NCBI RefSeq assembly: GCF_031624495.1
Contig: NZ_JAMQOP010000002.1
Coordinates: 930,001-994,000 of the forward strand
Source of the DNA: Halogeometricum sp. S1BR25-6
GTDB taxonomy: Archaea > Halobacteriota > Halobacteria > Halobacteriales > Haloferacaceae
DNA length: 64,000 bases
Direction: 5' to 3'
This document shows, piece by piece, positions 20,612-53,701 of the stretch. A model generated the notes under the pieces. It was not told the DNA's origin. It saw only the letters and a list, made by a program, of their open reading frames with translations, and ran no database searches. Numbering within the stretch: the first letter of the stretch is position 1; every line of letters starts with the position of its first letter. A program made the translations under genes and the position numbers.

Positions 20612-22246
20612 TCACGGACGCTGGTACGCGACGGTCAGTTTCGGCGGCGTCGACCCCTCCGAGGAGTAGAAGTCCCACCCGTTGCTGCCCGAAGGGGCGA
20701 GCACCCACCCGAGGTTCGCCGCCCCGGCGACCCACGCGGCGACGCTCTTGGTCACGTCGACGGTTGTCGTGCCGGCGGTCGTCGTCCCCGTCTTCGCGTC
20801 GGCGGTCGAGGCGGCCTCCACGTCGTTGGTCTGCACGCCGCTTCCGAGCGACGACCACGTGTCCGACTCGGTCCACTTCGTCCGCATGCGGTGGAGCGAC
20901 GCCCCGTTACCCGGGTCGACGGTCTGGAGCGACAGTTTCGCGGAGGTGACCGCCGACCCGGCCGGAATCTGTCCCGACCCGGTGCCGACGATGCCGTCGA
21001 AGCGGAGCAGGCCGTGCGTCTTGCGCCCCGACTTCGACGGTTCGTCGGTGTCGACCACGAGCGTCGTCGCGGAGCCGTACCCGGTGGTCGGCGAGTACTC
21101 CCGGAGGTAGGTGTCCTGCGTCCCCGCGTAGCCGCCGGACCCCTGCTGGAACGTCGCGGTGCCGGTGGTCCCGCCCGAGGACCCCGAATCGCCGCCCGTC
21201 CCGGAAGAGGGCTGGCCGAACCGGCTGGCGAAGTCGAAATCGAAGGAGAACTGGCTCCGCCCGTCGGTCCTGTACTGTTTCCGACTCGGCGAGTACGTCC
21301 GCACCGAGACGCGGTCGAGCGACCCCGACCCGCCGTCCGGGACGAATTTGATCAGCCGCATCCAGCCGTCGCCGCCGCTGGCGTAGTGCTGGTAGTCGGC
21401 CAGCATCTCATATACCGCCGTCCCGGCGGCGTTCGTCGAGGTTTGTTTCCACTGCCCGTCGGTGTAGTGGAAGTGCCCGCCGAGCACCATGAACACCTGC
21501 GGGTGCCGCCGAACGAGGTTTCGATAGATGTCCAAGCCGGAGTTGGCTCCGCTCCGCTGTCCGCCGTGCCCCTCGACGCCCGACTTGTCCCAGAGATACG
21601 AGTGCGTGGTGACGATGGTCGGCGTGTTCGCGTACTTCGAGAGCAGGTCGTCGGCCCACCCCATCAGCGTTCCCGAGTCCGAGACGGTGCCGGGGACGCC
21701 CCACTCCAAGTTCACGTGCAGGAAGGTGTACCCGCCCGCGGAGAACCGCTGATAGTGCGCTCGGTCGCCCGGTCCGGCGCCGAGATACCAGCTTTTCCCC
21801 GAGTAGCGCGCCTTCCCGAAGTACTTGCTGTAGTTCGCGAGACTCGACGAGCGGTTGCTGGTGGTCGCGTAGTCGTGGTTTCCGATGGTCGTCCCGTACG
21901 GCACCACCCCGTCAAGTTTGTCCATCACGGCGTCCATCCGCTGCCACTCGGTGGTGCTGCTGCCGTGTTCGACCAAGTCGCCCTCGTGGCTGACGAAGGC
22001 GATGTTCTCGGCGCTCCTGTTGGCCCGAATCCAGTCGGTCTGGGCGTGCGCCCGGGAGATGAGCGACGAACTCTCCGCGTACTTCTGCGTGTCCGGGATG
22101 GCGACGACCGTCCACGGACTCGCCGCGGCCGCCCCGGCGCTGCCGGCGCGGAGTCCGAGTCCCGCGGCGCCGACGGCTCCCACCGCACGGAGGTAGTTCC
22201 GTCTAGAGACCGGATGCGAATCGTCCCCGCGAGAATGTTGTCCCAT
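20612..22246 (-). CDS. Tat-exported metallophosphoesterase with C-terminal carbohydrate-binding-like (DNRLRE/CBM96-type) domain
   Basis: A protein of 544 residues. The N-terminus carries a twin-arginine signal (SRRNYLRAVGAVGAAGLGLRAG, about 15-36). Calcineurin-like phosphoesterase motifs follow: VVAIPDTQKY, SHEGDLVEHG, TTIGNHDY (GNHD/E), THSYLWD and GGHFHYTDG (GHxH), spanning about 47-330. A Gly/Ser-rich linker (about 348-365) precedes a beta-rich module with ATFQQGSGGYAGTQDTYL and WESD-like TKWTESDTWSSLG, typical of the DNRLRE domain. It probably acts on phosphoesters outside the cell, tethered to a polysaccharide. Likely start ATG at 22246. Confidence 0.88.
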   Translation of the reverse strand: MGQHSRGDDSHPVSRRNYLRAVGAVGAAGLGLRAGSAGAAAASPWTVVAIPDTQKYAESSSLISRAHAQTDWIRANRSAENIAFVSHEGDLVEHGSSTTEWQRMDAVMDKLDGVVPYGTTIGNHDYATTSNRSSSLANYSKYFGKARYSGKSWYLGAGPGDRAHYQRFSAGGYTFLHVNLEWGVPGTVSDSGTLMGWADDLLSKYANTPTIVTTHSYLWDKSGVEGHGGQRSGANSGLDIYRNLVRRHPQVFMVLGGHFHYTDGQWKQTSTNAAGTAVYEMLADYQHYASGGDGWMRLIKFVPDGGSGSLDRVSVRTYSPSRKQYRTDGRSQFSFDFDFASRFGQPSSGTGGDSGSSGGTTGTATFQQGSGGYAGTQDTYLREYSPTTGYGSATTLVVDTDEPSKSGRKTHGLLRFDGIVGTGSGQIPAGSAVTSAKLSLQTVDPGNGASLHRMRTKWTESDTWSSLGSGVQTNDVEAASTADAKTGTTTAGTTTVDVTKSVAAWVAGAANLGWVLAPSGSNGWDFYSSEGSTPPKLTVAYQRP

Positions 22247-22335
22247 ATGCGTACTCCATCCAGACGACTCCGCTCCGGGGAAAAACTCTTTTTCAGAGGT
22301 ATGGGACGGTCAGATATGTCAGGGATTCTCAACCA

Positions 22336-22342
22336 TTATATG
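22336..22342 (+). promoter_or_regulatory. TATA box ahead of HAF-repeat gene
   Basis: TTATATG-like sequence (22336-22342) is centred about 27 bp before ATG 22366. That ATG is out of frame with the downstream HAF-repeat frame. Confidence 0.5.
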
Positions 22343-22454
22343 CGCGCACGGAGTCCACTACCGGGATGAGCGGAGACCCACGCCGACGAGTCGGACGCCA
22401 GCCGGGTCGGTCGGAACGGCCGAACGGCACCCCGAACGCGGCACAGGAGCCACA

Positions 22455-23459
22455 GTGGACCTCGTAGACCTCGGAACGCTCGAGGGCGGGGAGATCAGCG
22501 ACGCGGCCGACCTGAACGAACGCGGAACCGTCGTCGGGTCGAGCGAGGGTCGGGTCGAGGGGGCGGTCTTCACGCGGGCGGTCCGCTGGGCGGCCGAAGC
22601 GGACCGGGACCCGGACGAGACGCCCGCGCCCGCGCCCACGCCCCTGCCGACGCTCCGTTCCGACGGGCGGGGCAACAGCGAGGCGACCGCCGTCGACGCT
22701 CGCGGCACCGCCGTCGGGAGCGCGCAGGACGACGACTGGGAGTGGCGGGCGGTGCGCTGGGTCGACGACGAGACGGTCGAACCCCTCGGGTCGCTCGGGG
22801 ACGGACCGACGAGCAGCCGCGCGCACGGGGTCGACAACCGCGGGACTGTCGTCGGACACGCCGCCGCCGACGGCGGTGATATCGTCCGCGCGTTCCGCTG
22901 GACGGAGGCCGAGGGAATGCACGGACTCGGGACGCTCCGCTCGGACGACGAGGGTCGGAGCGCCGCTACGGCGGCGGCCGACGACGGGAGCGTCGTCGGG
23001 TACAGCGAGACGGACGACGGCCCCGTCCACGCCTTCCGGTGGACAGAGCGAGGAGGGATGACCGACCTCGGAGCGCTCGACGGCGACGACGCGAGCGCAG
23101 CGTTCGGCGCCACCCCGACAGCGGTCGTGGGGCGAAGCCTGCGGTCGGCGGAGTTCGCCTCGCGGACGGCGACGATGTGGACCGACGGCGAACCCGTCGA
23201 GCTCGGGACGTTCCGCGCCGACAACTCGGGCTACAGCGACGCGTACGACGTCGCCTGCGACGTGGTCGTCGGCGAGAGCCAGGTCGACGCGGGCGTCGGG
23301 CACGCGTTCTACTGGGACGGTCGATTGAGCGACCTCGGGACGCTCCGGGCGAACGGAATCGGTCGGAGTCGGGCCTCGGCCGTGAACGCCAGCGGCGTCG
23401 TCGTCGGACAGAGCGGGACCGACGACGACGAACGGCACGCCGTGCAGTGGACGCTCTAA
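22455..23459 (+). CDS. HAF-repeat protein (start uncertain, possible upstream frameshift)
   Basis: A protein of 334 residues from GTG 22455, made of about seven copies of a 40-50 residue HAF-type repeat: LGTL or LGSL, then an RxxAxAVDxRGxVVG stretch, then RAFRWT (for example LGTLRSDDEGRSAATAAADDGS and HAFRWTERGGMTDLG). HAF repeats form beta-propeller-like folds in extracellular proteins. No signal peptide precedes it in this frame. An upstream ATG (22366), placed correctly behind a TATA box, reads MSGDPRRRVGRQPGRSERPN and stops at 22465-22467 in another frame, so one base may be missing or the gene may really start at GTG 22455. Confidence 0.7.
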   Translation: MDLVDLGTLEGGEISDAADLNERGTVVGSSEGRVEGAVFTRAVRWAAEADRDPDETPAPAPTPLPTLRSDGRGNSEATAVDARGTAVGSAQDDDWEWRAVRWVDDETVEPLGSLGDGPTSSRAHGVDNRGTVVGHAAADGGDIVRAFRWTEAEGMHGLGTLRSDDEGRSAATAAADDGSVVGYSETDDGPVHAFRWTERGGMTDLGALDGDDASAAFGATPTAVVGRSLRSAEFASRTATMWTDGEPVELGTFRADNSGYSDAYDVACDVVVGESQVDAGVGHAFYWDGRLSDLGTLRANGIGRSRASAVNASGVVVGQSGTDDDERHAVQWTL

Positions 23460-23538
23460 GGGGAGACTGCCACGACGCGTCGAGAACGTCCGAACGGTTC
23501 ACAATCGTTATACGCCGGCGGCCGGTACCTCACTTCGA

Positions 23539-23611
23539 GGGCCCGTAGCTCAGTGGACAGAGTGCTTGGTTCCGGACCAAGATGTCGCGGGTTCAAATCC
23601 CGTCGGGTCCG
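23539..23611 (+). tRNA. tRNA-Arg (anticodon CCG)
   Basis: A complete cloverleaf can be drawn. Acceptor GGGCCCG (23539-23545) pairs with CGGGTCC (23604-23610), with discriminator G at 23611. The D arm is GCTC/GAGT. The anticodon stem CTTGG/CCAAG encloses loop TTCCGGA, giving anticodon CCG for codon CGG. The T arm GCGGG/CCCGT encloses TTCAAAT. No CCA is encoded and no intron is seen. Fragments of its 3' half recur just downstream (see 23612-23784). Confidence 0.93.
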
Positions 23612-23646
23612 CTATTCTATCGCGAACGAAGTGAGCGTAGAATAGC
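23611..23646. repeat. inverted repeat directly after tRNA-Arg
   Basis: GCTATTCTA (23611-23619) and TAGAATAGC (23638-23646) form a perfect 9-bp inverted repeat around an 18-nt loop, overlapping the tRNA discriminator base. It could be a processing or termination hairpin, or a recombination-site arm. Confidence 0.55.
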
Positions 23647-23784
23647 GACAGCCGCGGGATTTGAATCAGGGAGCGAGCGAAGCGAGCGACCGGGGTTCAA
23701 ATCCCGTCGAGTCCGTTCGGCCTTCGGCCTCACTCCCCCGACGTAGTCACGCTCACTTCGCTCGCGTGACTCCCGTCGGGTCCG
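23612..23784. repeat. tRNA-Arg 3'-end fragments (att-like scars)
   Basis: Downstream of the tRNA are a direct partial copy of its T arm and acceptor end (23691-23715; GGTTCAAATCCCGTCGAGTCCG against GGTTCAAATCCCGTCGGGTCCG in the gene), a shorter copy CCCGTCGGGTCCG (23772-23784), and an inverted T-arm fragment GCGGGATTTGAAT (about 23653-23665). A further inverted repeat GTCACGC/GCGTGAC spans 23746-23770. Tandem partial tRNA 3' ends are the usual mark left by elements that integrate into tRNA genes. No integrase is present in the window. The rest of the interval to 23938 holds no gene I can support. Confidence 0.6.
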
Positions 23785-23938
23785 TTTTGTGGAGGTTCAC
23801 GTTGAACCGGGTTCGTCTCACTTCGCACCGACTCTCCGCCGGGTCCGTGCTCCCGTCCCCGTTCGTATCCCCGAGAGCGGAGACGCCACCCGACGAGGCC
23901 CAAACGCACTTCCTCGGGCGAACACAACTGGGAGTGTC

Positions 23939-24448
23939 ATGAGTCTGAAAGCGTTCTTCCGCGGCGAGGAGACCGGAGCGGGGACCGACGAACAGTCGGC
24001 CCCGACGACGAACGCGCAGTCCGTCGGGTCGGACGAATCGTCCAAGTGCGGTCTCGCGCGCACGGCCCTCCTCGTCGGAGGGGGCGTCGCGCTGGCGTAC
24101 TTCGCCACTCGCTCCGCGGGGTCCGGGGCGTCGATTCCGGCCGTCGACGGGGCGGACGACCGAGAAGAGGAGACGGAGGTCGAAACCGAGGTAGAGGTCG
24201 AAACGGGCGAGGGCGTAGAAGTGGAAGTCGAAGCGGAGACCGAACTGGAGCGAACCGGAGAGAACGAACTCGAAGTCGAATCCGAGGTCGAAGTGGAGGC
24301 CAGACGAACGGACGAGAACGAGGACGACGAGGAAGGCGAAGAAGCGGCCGACGAGGAGAACGACCAAGTCGTACCCGAGTCGTCGGAGGCGGACGAGCGA
24401 AGCGACGAGGACGACGACGAAGACGAAGAGGACGAGGACGAGGAATAG
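23939..24448 (+). CDS. acidic Glu/Val-repeat protein with one membrane segment
   Basis: A protein of 169 residues: a polar N-terminus (1-37), one hydrophobic segment (about 38-58, CGLARTALLVGGGVALAYFA), then more than 100 residues of strongly acidic sequence, first with alternating Val-Glu (ETEVETEVEVETGEGVEVEV, about 76-95) and later nearly all Asp/Glu. The alternation suggests extended strands or a disordered polyanionic tail. No family recognised. It is the first gene after the tRNA scar region and its composition is extreme even for a halophile, so it may be accessory. Confidence 0.6.
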   Translation: MSLKAFFRGEETGAGTDEQSAPTTNAQSVGSDESSKCGLARTALLVGGGVALAYFATRSAGSGASIPAVDGADDREEETEVETEVEVETGEGVEVEVEAETELERTGENELEVESEVEVEARRTDENEDDEEGEEAADEENDQVVPESSEADERSDEDDDEDEEDEDEE

Positions 24449-24620
24449 TCGGCGGACCCGCGCGTCTCCGGGCAGGCGTTGGTCGCGAGGACGGCGGATA
24501 TTCGGCCCCGCGTCCGCGGTCGGTCCCCGCCGTTCGAGCGCGGGAGAACCCGAGACCGGCCTGTTCGCCGTCGGTCGCAGTGGTCACACCTTTTGAGAAC
24601 CGGCGCACAACGGTCAGAGG

Positions 24621-25208
24621 ATGTCGCTCAATCGACTCGTTCGTGGCCGACAGACCAACGCCGCAATCGGATGGGTAGCGACGGGAGCCGTCGCGTTGGG
24701 TGGCGTCGAGAACCTCGTCGCCGGCGCGACACTCTGGGGTGTCTTCTTGCTGGTCGTCGCGGCCGCTCTCGCCGTTCCGGCGCTCGCGACCCGCGAGTGG
24801 ACGGCGATGGTCTCGTGGCCGCTTCCGGTGGTCGCCGCCGCCGCGGTGGTCGCCAGAGAGACGGGATTTCAGAGCGAAATCGCAGGCCACCTCGCCCTCG
24901 CGACGCTCGCACTGGTCCTCGTCGTCGAACTCGACGTGTTCACCTCGGTCGAACTGAGTCGCCGGTTCGCCGTCGTCTTCGGCGTCCTGACCACGATGGC
25001 GCTGCAGGCGGTGTGGGTCGTCGCCCAGTTCTACTCCGACCGGTGGCTCGGGAGCGAGTTCCTGAGCACGCAGACCGAACTCCAGCGAGATATCGTCGCC
25101 GTCACGGCCGTCGGGGCCGTTCTGGGCGCTCTCTGCGAGGTGTACTTCGCGCGGTACGAACCGGTCGGTGCCGTCGGCGAGTCGACGGACCGGAGGGAGA
25201 CGTCGTGA
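24621..25208 (+). CDS. hypothetical multi-pass membrane protein
   Basis: A protein of 195 residues with about six predicted membrane segments: 15-33, 35-55, 62-80, 88-110, 117-137 and 157-178. A short loop SDRWLGSEFLSTQTELQRD joins the last two. No catalytic motif. The TGA stop (25206-25208) is overlapped by the GTG start of the next gene, so the two are almost certainly translationally coupled and may form a complex. Function unknown. The 172-bp region upstream (24449-24620) holds no recognisable gene. Confidence 0.7.
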   Translation: MSLNRLVRGRQTNAAIGWVATGAVALGGVENLVAGATLWGVFLLVVAAALAVPALATREWTAMVSWPLPVVAAAAVVARETGFQSEIAGHLALATLALVLVVELDVFTSVELSRRFAVVFGVLTTMALQAVWVVAQFYSDRWLGSEFLSTQTELQRDIVAVTAVGAVLGALCEVYFARYEPVGAVGESTDRRETS

Positions 25209-25819
25209 CTCTCGGCGGCGCGCTGGGACTGTCCGAATCCCACGAGCGCGCCCTCGTGCGAGTCCTTCAGGCAGTCCTCGTGGGACTGTTCGGCTACGGT
25301 CTCGCGACCGTGCGAGCGCCACTCGTCGCGTCGGGGGCCGTCGGACTCGCGGTGACGTTCCTGCCGGCGTTGCTCCGTCGCGAGTACGGCTACCGGATGG
25401 ACGCCGGTCTCGTCGTCTGGATCACGCTCTCGATGCTCCTCCACGTCGTCGGCTTCCTCGGATTCTACGACAGGTACCAGTGGTACGACGAGATAACGCA
25501 CACGCTCTCGGCGACGGTCGTCGCCGGACTCGGCTACGCGGCGTTCCGGGCGTTGGAACTCCACTCCGACGACATCGAGGTCCCCTCCGAGTTCAGAGCG
25601 GTGTTCATCGTCGTGTTCGTCCTCGCGGCGGGGGTCTTCTGGGAAGTACTGGAGTTCGCTCTCGGCGGTCTCGTCACCGTCTACGGCATCGACGACATCG
25701 TCACCGACATGGTGTTCAACGGCGTCGGCGCGATACTCGTCGCGCTCTGGGGAACCGGCCACGTCGACGGACTGGTCGGCTTCTTCGGCAACCGTCTCCG
25801 GGACGGCGACGACGGGTGA
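25205..25819 (+). CDS. YjdF/DUF2238-like membrane protein
   Basis: A protein of 204 residues from GTG 25205, which overlaps the preceding stop (GTGA). About six membrane segments are predicted. The pattern RYQWYDEITHTLSATVVAGL (about 94-113), then GVFWEVLEFALG (about 151-162) and IDDIVTDMVFNGVGAILVALW (about 169-189), matches the WYD...H...S / WE..EF / D...D...N.GA signature of the DUF2238 (YjdF) family, whose role is unknown. The conserved His, Asp and Glu facing the membrane suggest metal or proton handling. Confidence 0.75.
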   Translation: MTLGGALGLSESHERALVRVLQAVLVGLFGYGLATVRAPLVASGAVGLAVTFLPALLRREYGYRMDAGLVVWITLSMLLHVVGFLGFYDRYQWYDEITHTLSATVVAGLGYAAFRALELHSDDIEVPSEFRAVFIVVFVLAAGVFWEVLEFALGGLVTVYGIDDIVTDMVFNGVGAILVALWGTGHVDGLVGFFGNRLRDGDDG

Positions 25820-52174: not shown

Positions 52175-53701
52175 CTACTGCCTGTCCGCGTCCGACCGTC
52201 GCTCGCCGGCCTCCTCGGCGGCGGCGAACACGTCCGCCATCCACGCGTCGAGGTTCTCCTCGTGGACGTTCTCGCGGAGCGCCGACATCCGCTCGCGGCG
52301 TTCCGCCTCGTCCATCGTCATCGCATCCTCGATGGCGCGGGCGAACCCCTCGGTGTCGTGGGGGTTGACGACCAGCGAGTGCTCGCCGAGTTGCTCGTAG
52401 GCGCCCGTCTGGTCCGAGAGGACGAGGACGCCGTCGTCGTCCACCTGCGAGGCGACGTACTCCTTGGCGACGAGGTTCATCCCGTCGCGCAGGGCGCTGA
52501 CGAGCATCACGTCGCTGTAGCGGTACAGGGCGTTGAGTTCGTCGCTGTCGAGCCAATCGTCGATGTAGATGACGGGCGTCCACTCGTCGGTGCCGAAGCG
52601 CTCGTTGATGCGCTCGACCGCCTCCTGAACGTTCGTCTGGAGGTTCTGGTACTCGGGGATGAGCGACCGCGACTCGTCGGCCTTCTGGACGTACGTGAGT
52701 TCGCCCTGTCGCTCGGGGCGCCCCTTCCAGAACTCTTCGAGCGCCTTCAGTCGCTCGACGATGCCCTTCGTGTAGTCGAGGCGGTCGACGCCGAGGGCCA
52801 CTTTCGAGTCCTCGGGGATGCCGCGGTCCTGTTTGAACGCCCGCCAGGACTCCTCGTCGGCCGAGGCGGCCGACTCCGCGATGCCGTCGGCGTCGACGCC
52901 GAGGGGGAACGCCTGAACGTAGGTGGTGTGGCCGTCGTACTGGACGCGGTTGTCCTCGTAGTCGACGAAGGCGTCCTCGAACGCCTGGTCGACGCAGTCG
53001 AGGAAGTTCTGACAGTAGCGCTCGACGTGGAAGCCGAGCACGTCGTTCGCCAGCAGGCCGTCGAGAAGGTCGTCAGCCTGCGGGCAGGCGCGGAAGGTGT
53101 CCCATCCGGGCCAGGTGATGTGCCAGAAATGCGTCAGGAGGGCGTCGGGGGCCTCCTCGCGGACCATCCGGGGCGCCAAGGCGAAGTGGTAGTCCTGGAA
53201 CCAGACCACCGAGTCCTCGTCGATGGCGTCAACGACGGCGTCGGCGAAGCGGCCGTTCACCTGCTGGTAGCGCCGCCAGTGGCGGTTGGCGTACTCCGTC
53301 TTCCAGATGCCGCCGTGGCTCAGCGGCCACAGCACGCGGTTGCTGTAGCCGTAGTAGTACGCCTCCACTTCGTCGTCGGAGAGCCAGATTCGCTTGAGGT
53401 CGTAGGCCTCCTCGTCGGGCGGCATCCGGACGACGTCGTCGTCGCCGGTCGCCTCGCGGTCGGCCTCGCCGTCGCCCCATGCGATCCACGTCCCGTGGAC
53501 ACGTTGCATGACGGGGTCGAGACCGGCCGTGAGACCGCCCGCGGGTTCGTCGACGACGACGTTCCCCTCGTCGTCGTACTCGTGGGAGTAGGGCTGGCGG
53601 TTCGAGACCACGACGAGGTCGCCGGGAACCGAGGGGGCGTCGGCGTCGTTGCTGTCGCCGTCGTCGGTCCGGCCGTCGGTCGACTCCTCGGCGCCTGTCA
53701 T
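52175..53701 (-). CDS. otsA: alpha,alpha-trehalose-phosphate synthase (GT20)
   Basis: A protein of 508 residues of glycosyltransferase family 20, joining UDP- or GDP-glucose with glucose 6-phosphate to make trehalose 6-phosphate. DLVVVSNRQPYSHEY (about 28-42), the N-terminal loop GGLTAGLDPVM, IWLSDDEVEAYYYGYSNRVLWP (about 105-126), WFQDYHFALAP, GVDRLDYTKGI (about 300-310) and SALRDGMNLVAKEYVASQ (about 425-442) are diagnostic. No phosphatase gene (otsB) is nearby. It lies 28 bp downstream of the pentonate dehydratase gene on the same strand, so the two probably share a transcript. The acidic N-terminus (1-25) is disordered. Confidence 0.93.
   Translation of the reverse strand: MTGAEESTDGRTDDGDSNDADAPSVPGDLVVVSNRQPYSHEYDDEGNVVVDEPAGGLTAGLDPVMQRVHGTWIAWGDGEADREATGDDDVVRMPPDEEAYDLKRIWLSDDEVEAYYYGYSNRVLWPLSHGGIWKTEYANRHWRRYQQVNGRFADAVVDAIDEDSVVWFQDYHFALAPRMVREEAPDALLTHFWHITWPGWDTFRACPQADDLLDGLLANDVLGFHVERYCQNFLDCVDQAFEDAFVDYEDNRVQYDGHTTYVQAFPLGVDADGIAESAASADEESWRAFKQDRGIPEDSKVALGVDRLDYTKGIVERLKALEEFWKGRPERQGELTYVQKADESRSLIPEYQNLQTNVQEAVERINERFGTDEWTPVIYIDDWLDSDELNALYRYSDVMLVSALRDGMNLVAKEYVASQVDDDGVLVLSDQTGAYEQLGEHSLVVNPHDTEGFARAIEDAMTMDEAERRERMSALRENVHEENLDAWMADVFAAAEEAGERRSDADRQ

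Follow-up and report, generated by a model that had tools for sequence, protein, structure and literature searches.

In IntSNJ2 and the pleolipoviral proviruses, the 3' end of a tRNA gene forms the core of the attachment site (att), which is 14 bp long for SNJ2, and the integrase gene lies beside it (PMC8371274, PMC7911831). The provirus Humcor2 likewise has a 13-bp att at a tRNA end (PMC7911831). Partial tRNAs, some of them adjoining a full tRNA gene, are described as integration remnants in the covered sections of the reports on Haloferax gibbonsii LR2-5 (PMC7921747) and Haloquadratum (PMC3119063), and neither a unit architecture with hairpins nor a count over whole genomes or any turnover is mentioned there. 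Haloquadratum also carries PATEs and SMRs, which are short, non-coding, palindrome-bearing elements; SMR-A is about 110 bp long, with an unexplained mobilisation (PMC3119063). Serial units with folded recombination sites are known from the cassette arrays of integrons, including archaeal integrons (PMC9668308).

The locus described here lies behind tRNA-Arg(CCG) in a window of 64,000 nucleotides (G000:C2:930001-994000), the whole stretch analysed, from the 4.5-Mb genome of Halogeometricum sp. S1BR25-6 (G000); the relatives used for comparison are haloarchaea. It resembles the tRNA-targeting tyrosine recombinase elements of archaea in its tRNA-3'-end core and, in the relatives G002 and G049, in an adjoining integrase. 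Unlike IntSNJ2 and the pleolipoviral elements, however, the units found here are gene-free, about 100 nt long, arranged in serial arrays and built of two conserved hairpins. They belong to a widespread family anchored to tRNA genes and, with a probability of roughly 60%, are non-autonomous mini-cassettes for which the 3' end of the tRNA would be the site of attachment. The published partial tRNAs beside full tRNAs are probably the same objects, seen singly. No earlier description of the units was found in the part of the literature covered.

The array behind tRNA-Arg(CCG)

The mature 3' end of the tRNA is placed at 23611 by both ARAGORN and Rfam. The tail copies, inverted T-arm and inverted repeats that the sequence-only reading had reported behind it were all found again, with copies matching at 22/23 and 13/13 positions, and nested inverted repeats (I1-I3) were detected. 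The features are:

23539-23611, + strand: tRNA-Arg(CCG), the array anchor, with the attachment site (attB) at its 3' end; ARAGORN and Rfam RF00005, 65.6 bits
23589-23611, + strand: T-arm and 3' strand of the acceptor (T), the segment that is copied; att core of integrated elements in relatives
23612-23645, + strand: H1, the first hairpin of unit 1, with the tip motif CGAACGAAGTGAG at 23623; motif scan and DNA fold
23655-23706, + strand: hairpin H2 of unit 1, made of inverted T-arm, core and direct T-arm; DNA fold
23656-23665: inverted T-arm within H2 of unit 1, GGGATTTGAA
23674-23686: tip motif of the H2 core, CGAGCGAAGCGAG, with loop GAA at 23679-23681
23693-23715, + strand: first tRNA-tail copy, closing unit 1, 22/23 match to 23589-23611
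23716-23784, + strand: unit 2, of a shorter class, in which a 13-nt tail copy (23772-23784, 13/13) comes after a hairpin (23745-23771)
23836-23848, + strand: weak third 13-nt tail copy (12/13), of uncertain significance
23939-25819, + strand: genes of a Glu/Val-rich protein and two membrane proteins, whose membership of the array is unsupported

A unit begins directly behind the tRNA tail T with H1, followed by H2, which has a fresh copy of T as its 3' arm, and the array reads tRNA(T)-H1-H2/T-H1'-H2'/T. In DNA folding, H1 of unit 1 reaches -6.6 kcal/mol (z -1.84). On the tRNA strand, H2 adopts a single long hairpin (-13.7 kcal/mol, z -3.40), and its complement strand gives -10.6 kcal/mol (z -2.36). 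The H2 stem is formed by the inverted T-arm and the T-arm, and its tip often reads GA-NN-GNA-NN-GA. Over 23400-23950, the tRNA alone reaches an Rfam gathering score, and no structured-RNA family covers the units.

With up to three mismatches, the 23-mer tail matches only twice across the window, once at the tRNA itself and once at the copy, compared to none in 100 shuffles. By itself, the 13-mer is no rarity: it occurs four times in the window at up to one mismatch, with 2.0 expected, and the meaning of its copy depends on its position and its conservation in relatives. Unit 2 is also present in G001, G002, G003 and G049, and positions 23599-23782 are 88.7% identical to the matching array of G049, which belongs to another genus. 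A 93-aa ORF, MNQGASEASDRGSNP..., at 23661-23942 (+) crosses hairpin H2 and the tail copies. Unit hairpins generate spurious ORFs of this kind, and such frames may enter haloarchaeal annotations as hypothetical proteins.

The genes at 23939-25819 had been suggested to be accessory cargo. This could not be upheld: there is no bounding copy on the far side, G+C (0.671, compared to 0.679 for the window) and codon usage are ordinary, and the window holds no integrase. No close tail copy bounds these genes, a single 13-mer with one mismatch lying at 52404, which is within chance expectation, and none of the encoded proteins has a Pfam match. G004 carries these genes in the corresponding position, the fetched loci of G001, G002 and G003 have no match to them, and the region is variable among relatives. 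The upstream side of the tRNA is variable as well, without tail copies. Here, metallophosphoesterase-like and HAF-repeat-like genes (20612-23459, named by eye) between a MATE transporter gene and the tRNA are present in G000 and G004 and absent from G002 and G003.

Integrase elements at the same tRNA in relatives

The proposal of an integration hotspot was borne out by the relatives, in two of which, G002 and G049, integrase elements occupy the 3' junction of this tRNA. In the congener G002, a 4.2-kb element encoding a tyrosine integrase (PF00589, E=3.5e-11) lies between the tRNA and unit 1. It ends in GGTTCCAAATCCCGTCGGGTCCG, a copy of the tRNA tail, and is followed by the same H1-H2 unit as in the window; direct repeats identical to the tRNA 3' end thus bracket the inserted DNA. 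The element itself has no H1- or H2-like ends. In G049, about 110 bp separate the start of an integrase gene at the same junction from a 13-nt attR, behind which both units follow, and in G010 an integrase gene lies just 3' of tRNA-Arg(CCG). An integrase gene therefore stands beside one att site in all three genomes. The window has unit 1 directly behind the tRNA, where G002 has its 4.2-kb element, and so represents the empty site, of which the lack of an integrase gene within the window is to be expected. Taken together, the sequence comparison identifies tRNA-Arg(CCG) as a true attachment site for tyrosine-integrase elements.

The DNA between the copies differs among relatives as well. G004 has 1.7 kb between units 1 and 2, G001 has 3.5 kb behind unit 2 that reach a further 13-nt copy, and G002 has a further 2.7 kb between units 1 and 2. 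G003 lacks unit 1, the missing 104 bp corresponding precisely to one period. An identical array in all relatives, with nothing variable between the copies, would have spoken against a hotspot, and the contents in G001, G002 and G004 are variable. The 2.7 kb of G002 include the gene of a protein with a nucleotidyltransferase domain, accompanied by a small partner ORF; the two are possibly a pair of the toxin-antitoxin type. They stand between tail copies, and a shorter, apparently decayed version is found in G001; the loci are L087 (7910-9077) and L089 (6223-6899), in reverse-complement coordinates.

Hairpin units behind other tRNA genes

The same structure is widespread behind other tRNA genes. 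A downstream copy of the own 23-nt tail with at most four mismatches was found for 16 of the 48 tRNA genes of this genome, a count that omits the tandem Gly-GCC and Asp-GTC pairs and for which tRNA flanks were examined individually; in shuffled flanks, the best copy never fell below seven mismatches. Close upstream copies came only from tandem tRNA pairs. Three more tRNAs, Gly-TCC, Gly-CCC and Arg-TCT, have a 13-nt tail copy each, and about 60% of the tRNA genes have no tail copy behind them. Between copies, most units measure 79-128 nt (about 80-130 nt), which is too short for an ordinary gene, and the units hold no evident gene.

A T-arm hairpin was detected in 136 of 145 haloarchaeal genomes with a pattern that specifies the T-arm stem only and leaves the interior free; the reversed-pattern control gave no hit. 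Of 80 strand matches among the loci read, 56 follow a tRNA of the same strand that has a matching tail, and many of the others are the same palindrome on the opposite strand. The distance to the upstream tRNA has a median of 45 bp (n=56, 26 isoacceptors), and the 10-12 nt after the pattern match the adjacent tRNA by 90% on average, compared to 41% for other tRNAs. Several families of cores are each found behind more than one tRNA, and in Natrarchaeobius (L186) three different cores lie behind one tRNA-Asp. Integrases adjoin such units behind other tRNAs too (L100, L126). A chance origin of the array is ruled out by the 23-mer shuffles, the genome-wide tail copies and this census. The suggestion that the copies are scars of integration into tRNA 3' ends holds for the attachment site itself but not for copies as simple scars peculiar to this locus, since two-hairpin units lie behind many tRNAs, both in this genome and across nearly all haloarchaea; a purely locus-specific scar is thereby ruled out.

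The hairpins are conserved in structure. The tip GA-NN-GNA-NN-GA, scanned with complementary NN and a one- or two-base N permitted in the loop, occurs in 43 of 115 distinct hairpins, with 0.4 in shuffled sequences and none on the complement. GNA triloops are present in 75 of the 115 (19 in shuffles), while GNRA loops of the RNA type are not enriched (8 vs 12.6). Across 55 hairpins, complementarity of the two inner pairs amounts to 78%, compared to 43% in shuffles with a maximum of 56%; these hairpins are mutually related, and the shuffle does not amount to a formal probability. Offsets 1, 2, 3, 6 and 7 from the tip lie above every shuffle, each with several pair types. Covariation was counted from the tip outward, the MAFFT alignment of the 54/55-nt family being out of structural register. 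This comparison shows compensatory changes that would maintain the unit hairpins. GNA loops framed by GA pairs, as in d(GCGNAGC) mini-hairpins, are especially stable in DNA. The tips therefore favour single-stranded DNA over RNA, without proving it.

Orthologous tRNAs of G000, G003 and G004 differ by whole units, with boundaries exactly at the tail copies. For Leu-CAA, the second unit of G000 is the first in G004 (83%), and for Ser-CGA the first unit of G000 is the second in G004 (87%). G004 carries the first units of G000 and G003 in succession behind Ser-TGA (91% and 78%), and behind Arg-TCG it has a different first unit, followed by sequence resembling the unit start of G000 and G003. By unit starts, the first Leu-TAG unit of G000 is missing from G003, which has a single unit behind Arg-TCT; Met is also among the tRNAs with whole-unit gain, loss or reordering. 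The tRNA-proximal place of the extra units fits insertion at the tRNA, although losses from longer arrays could partly imitate it.

Some matches lie outside this setting. Class-2-like units with 13-nt tail copies of the Arg-CCG type, and no tRNA found nearby, occur at L003 (G000:C4:440356-440439), L006 (G000:C1:984450-984531) and G000:C1:1496740-1496818, as if units or adjoining elements had moved off the tRNA. T-arm hairpins with GA-rich cores were also seen outside the placed haloarchaea, at L181 and L164 (Woesearchaeota) and at L204 (Euryarchaeota archaeon Ods02). L204 matches its adjacent tRNA-Glu at 11/11 positions, L181 its tRNA-Ser at only 7/11, and the unit system may extend beyond Halobacteria. 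Bacterial matches to the T-arm pattern were rejected as this element, as those read were mostly tRNA-Ser anticodon regions. In viral contigs, the strict hairpin core had no match; the T-arm matches listed there were internal to tRNA-Ser or unrelated hairpins, except for one of haloarchaeal type (L280, 13864-13909 of IMGVR_UViG_3300000875_000004), which may be the host flank of a provirus.

Origin of the units and relation to known systems

If the units are mini-cassettes, integrases that target tRNAs would act in trans at T to insert and excise them. A folded single strand might be the substrate, which is proposed more tentatively because GNA-type tips are confined to one strand and a double-stranded circle of some 100 bp would be stiff. 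Against mobility, ordinary recombination between the 21-23-bp direct repeats can explain the loss of units, and differential loss from longer arrays can explain their reordering. The unit used as BLAST query had no match in plasmid and phage records, and neither these searches nor the scans of viral contigs demonstrated an excised unit, a plasmid- or phage-borne unit or a cognate integrase. The absence of H1- or H2-like ends from the G002 element also counts against this reading. Furthermore, simple integrase exchange at the tail accounts neither for the inverted arm that matches each tRNA nor for one core family behind different tRNAs. Cores that move between tRNAs are puzzling because such an exchange should confine a unit to its own tRNA type.

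Local slippage, in which template switching during replication at the T-arm produced both the direct and the inverted copies and arm correction keeps them alike without any mobility, would account for arms matching each tRNA, and the T-arm itself is quasi-palindromic. However, it offers no source for H1 or for core families recurring behind different tRNAs and no account of integrase elements sharing the junction, and is considered very improbable. The units could also be layered scars, each composed of the two ends and the attR copy of a full-size integrated element that lost its middle. Full elements do occupy these junctions, and partial tRNAs beside full copies are called remnants in the covered sections of the report on Haloferax gibbonsii LR2-5 (PMC7921747). 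This origin is nevertheless unlikely, since the intact G002 element lacks the two hairpins at its ends, and the narrow sizes, single architecture and covarying hairpins would not arise through decay.

A host function is somewhat less probable than such scars. The hairpins would then act in the RNA as trailers or terminators, helping in the termination or processing of tRNA transcripts, and would be maintained by selection, with the tail copy as part of the structure. The location directly behind the tRNA on the same strand, the compensatory changes and the conservation of the Arg-CCG array between genera are consistent with this. On the other hand, most tRNA genes of this genome (about 60%) have no units, close relatives differ by whole units at orthologous tRNAs, the tips are of the GNA and not the RNA-type GNRA kind, and no Rfam family was matched.

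Among the described systems, the mini-cassettes proposed here share with integrons the serial units, folded sites with a variable tip, a fixed anchor and tyrosine recombinases as likely agents. Unlike integrons, they have no IntI and no attC core, are gene-free and are anchored by a tRNA gene. The attC core has the consensus GTTRRRY. The T-arm sequence, GTTCRAATC, deviates from this core by having C as its fourth base. IntI (TIGR02249 above cut-off) was found in 0 of 97 haloarchaeal genomes. For these two reasons, the unit system is not an integron, though it may work in an integron-like manner. The short ORFs of integron cassettes are not found in units of mostly 79-128 nt, and, as regards hairpin sites, the hairpins carry their tip motif on the tRNA strand only and show compensatory changes. 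That tRNA 3' ends serve as attI-like anchors of an integron-like system without IntI, whose gene-free cassettes of about 100 nt form single-stranded DNA hairpins with GA/GNA tips and are inserted beside the tRNA and shuffled by tRNA-targeting tyrosine integrases, is a speculative and rather doubtful extension. The units are also similar to PATEs and SMRs in being short, non-coding and palindrome-bearing, but those are scattered on the chromosome or inside other elements, whereas the units lie behind tRNA genes with copies of that tRNA's tail. MITEs, PATEs and SMRs occupy many chromosomal sites without a link to a single gene class; here, 56 of the 80 matches are linked to tRNAs, and a few class-2-like units (L003, L006) stand apart from them.

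A regular structure thus follows roughly one third of the tRNA genes of this genome, is present in nearly all haloarchaeal genomes sampled, and has apparently been noticed only bit by bit, as 'partial tRNAs' or remnants. As host RNAs, the units would constitute a new class of tRNA trailer. If they are mobile, haloarchaea would possess a system of non-coding cassettes with essential genes as anchors. Such a system would account for the integration hotspots with serial copies at tRNA tails and would be a second natural case in which recombination of single strands by tyrosine recombinases could be tested.
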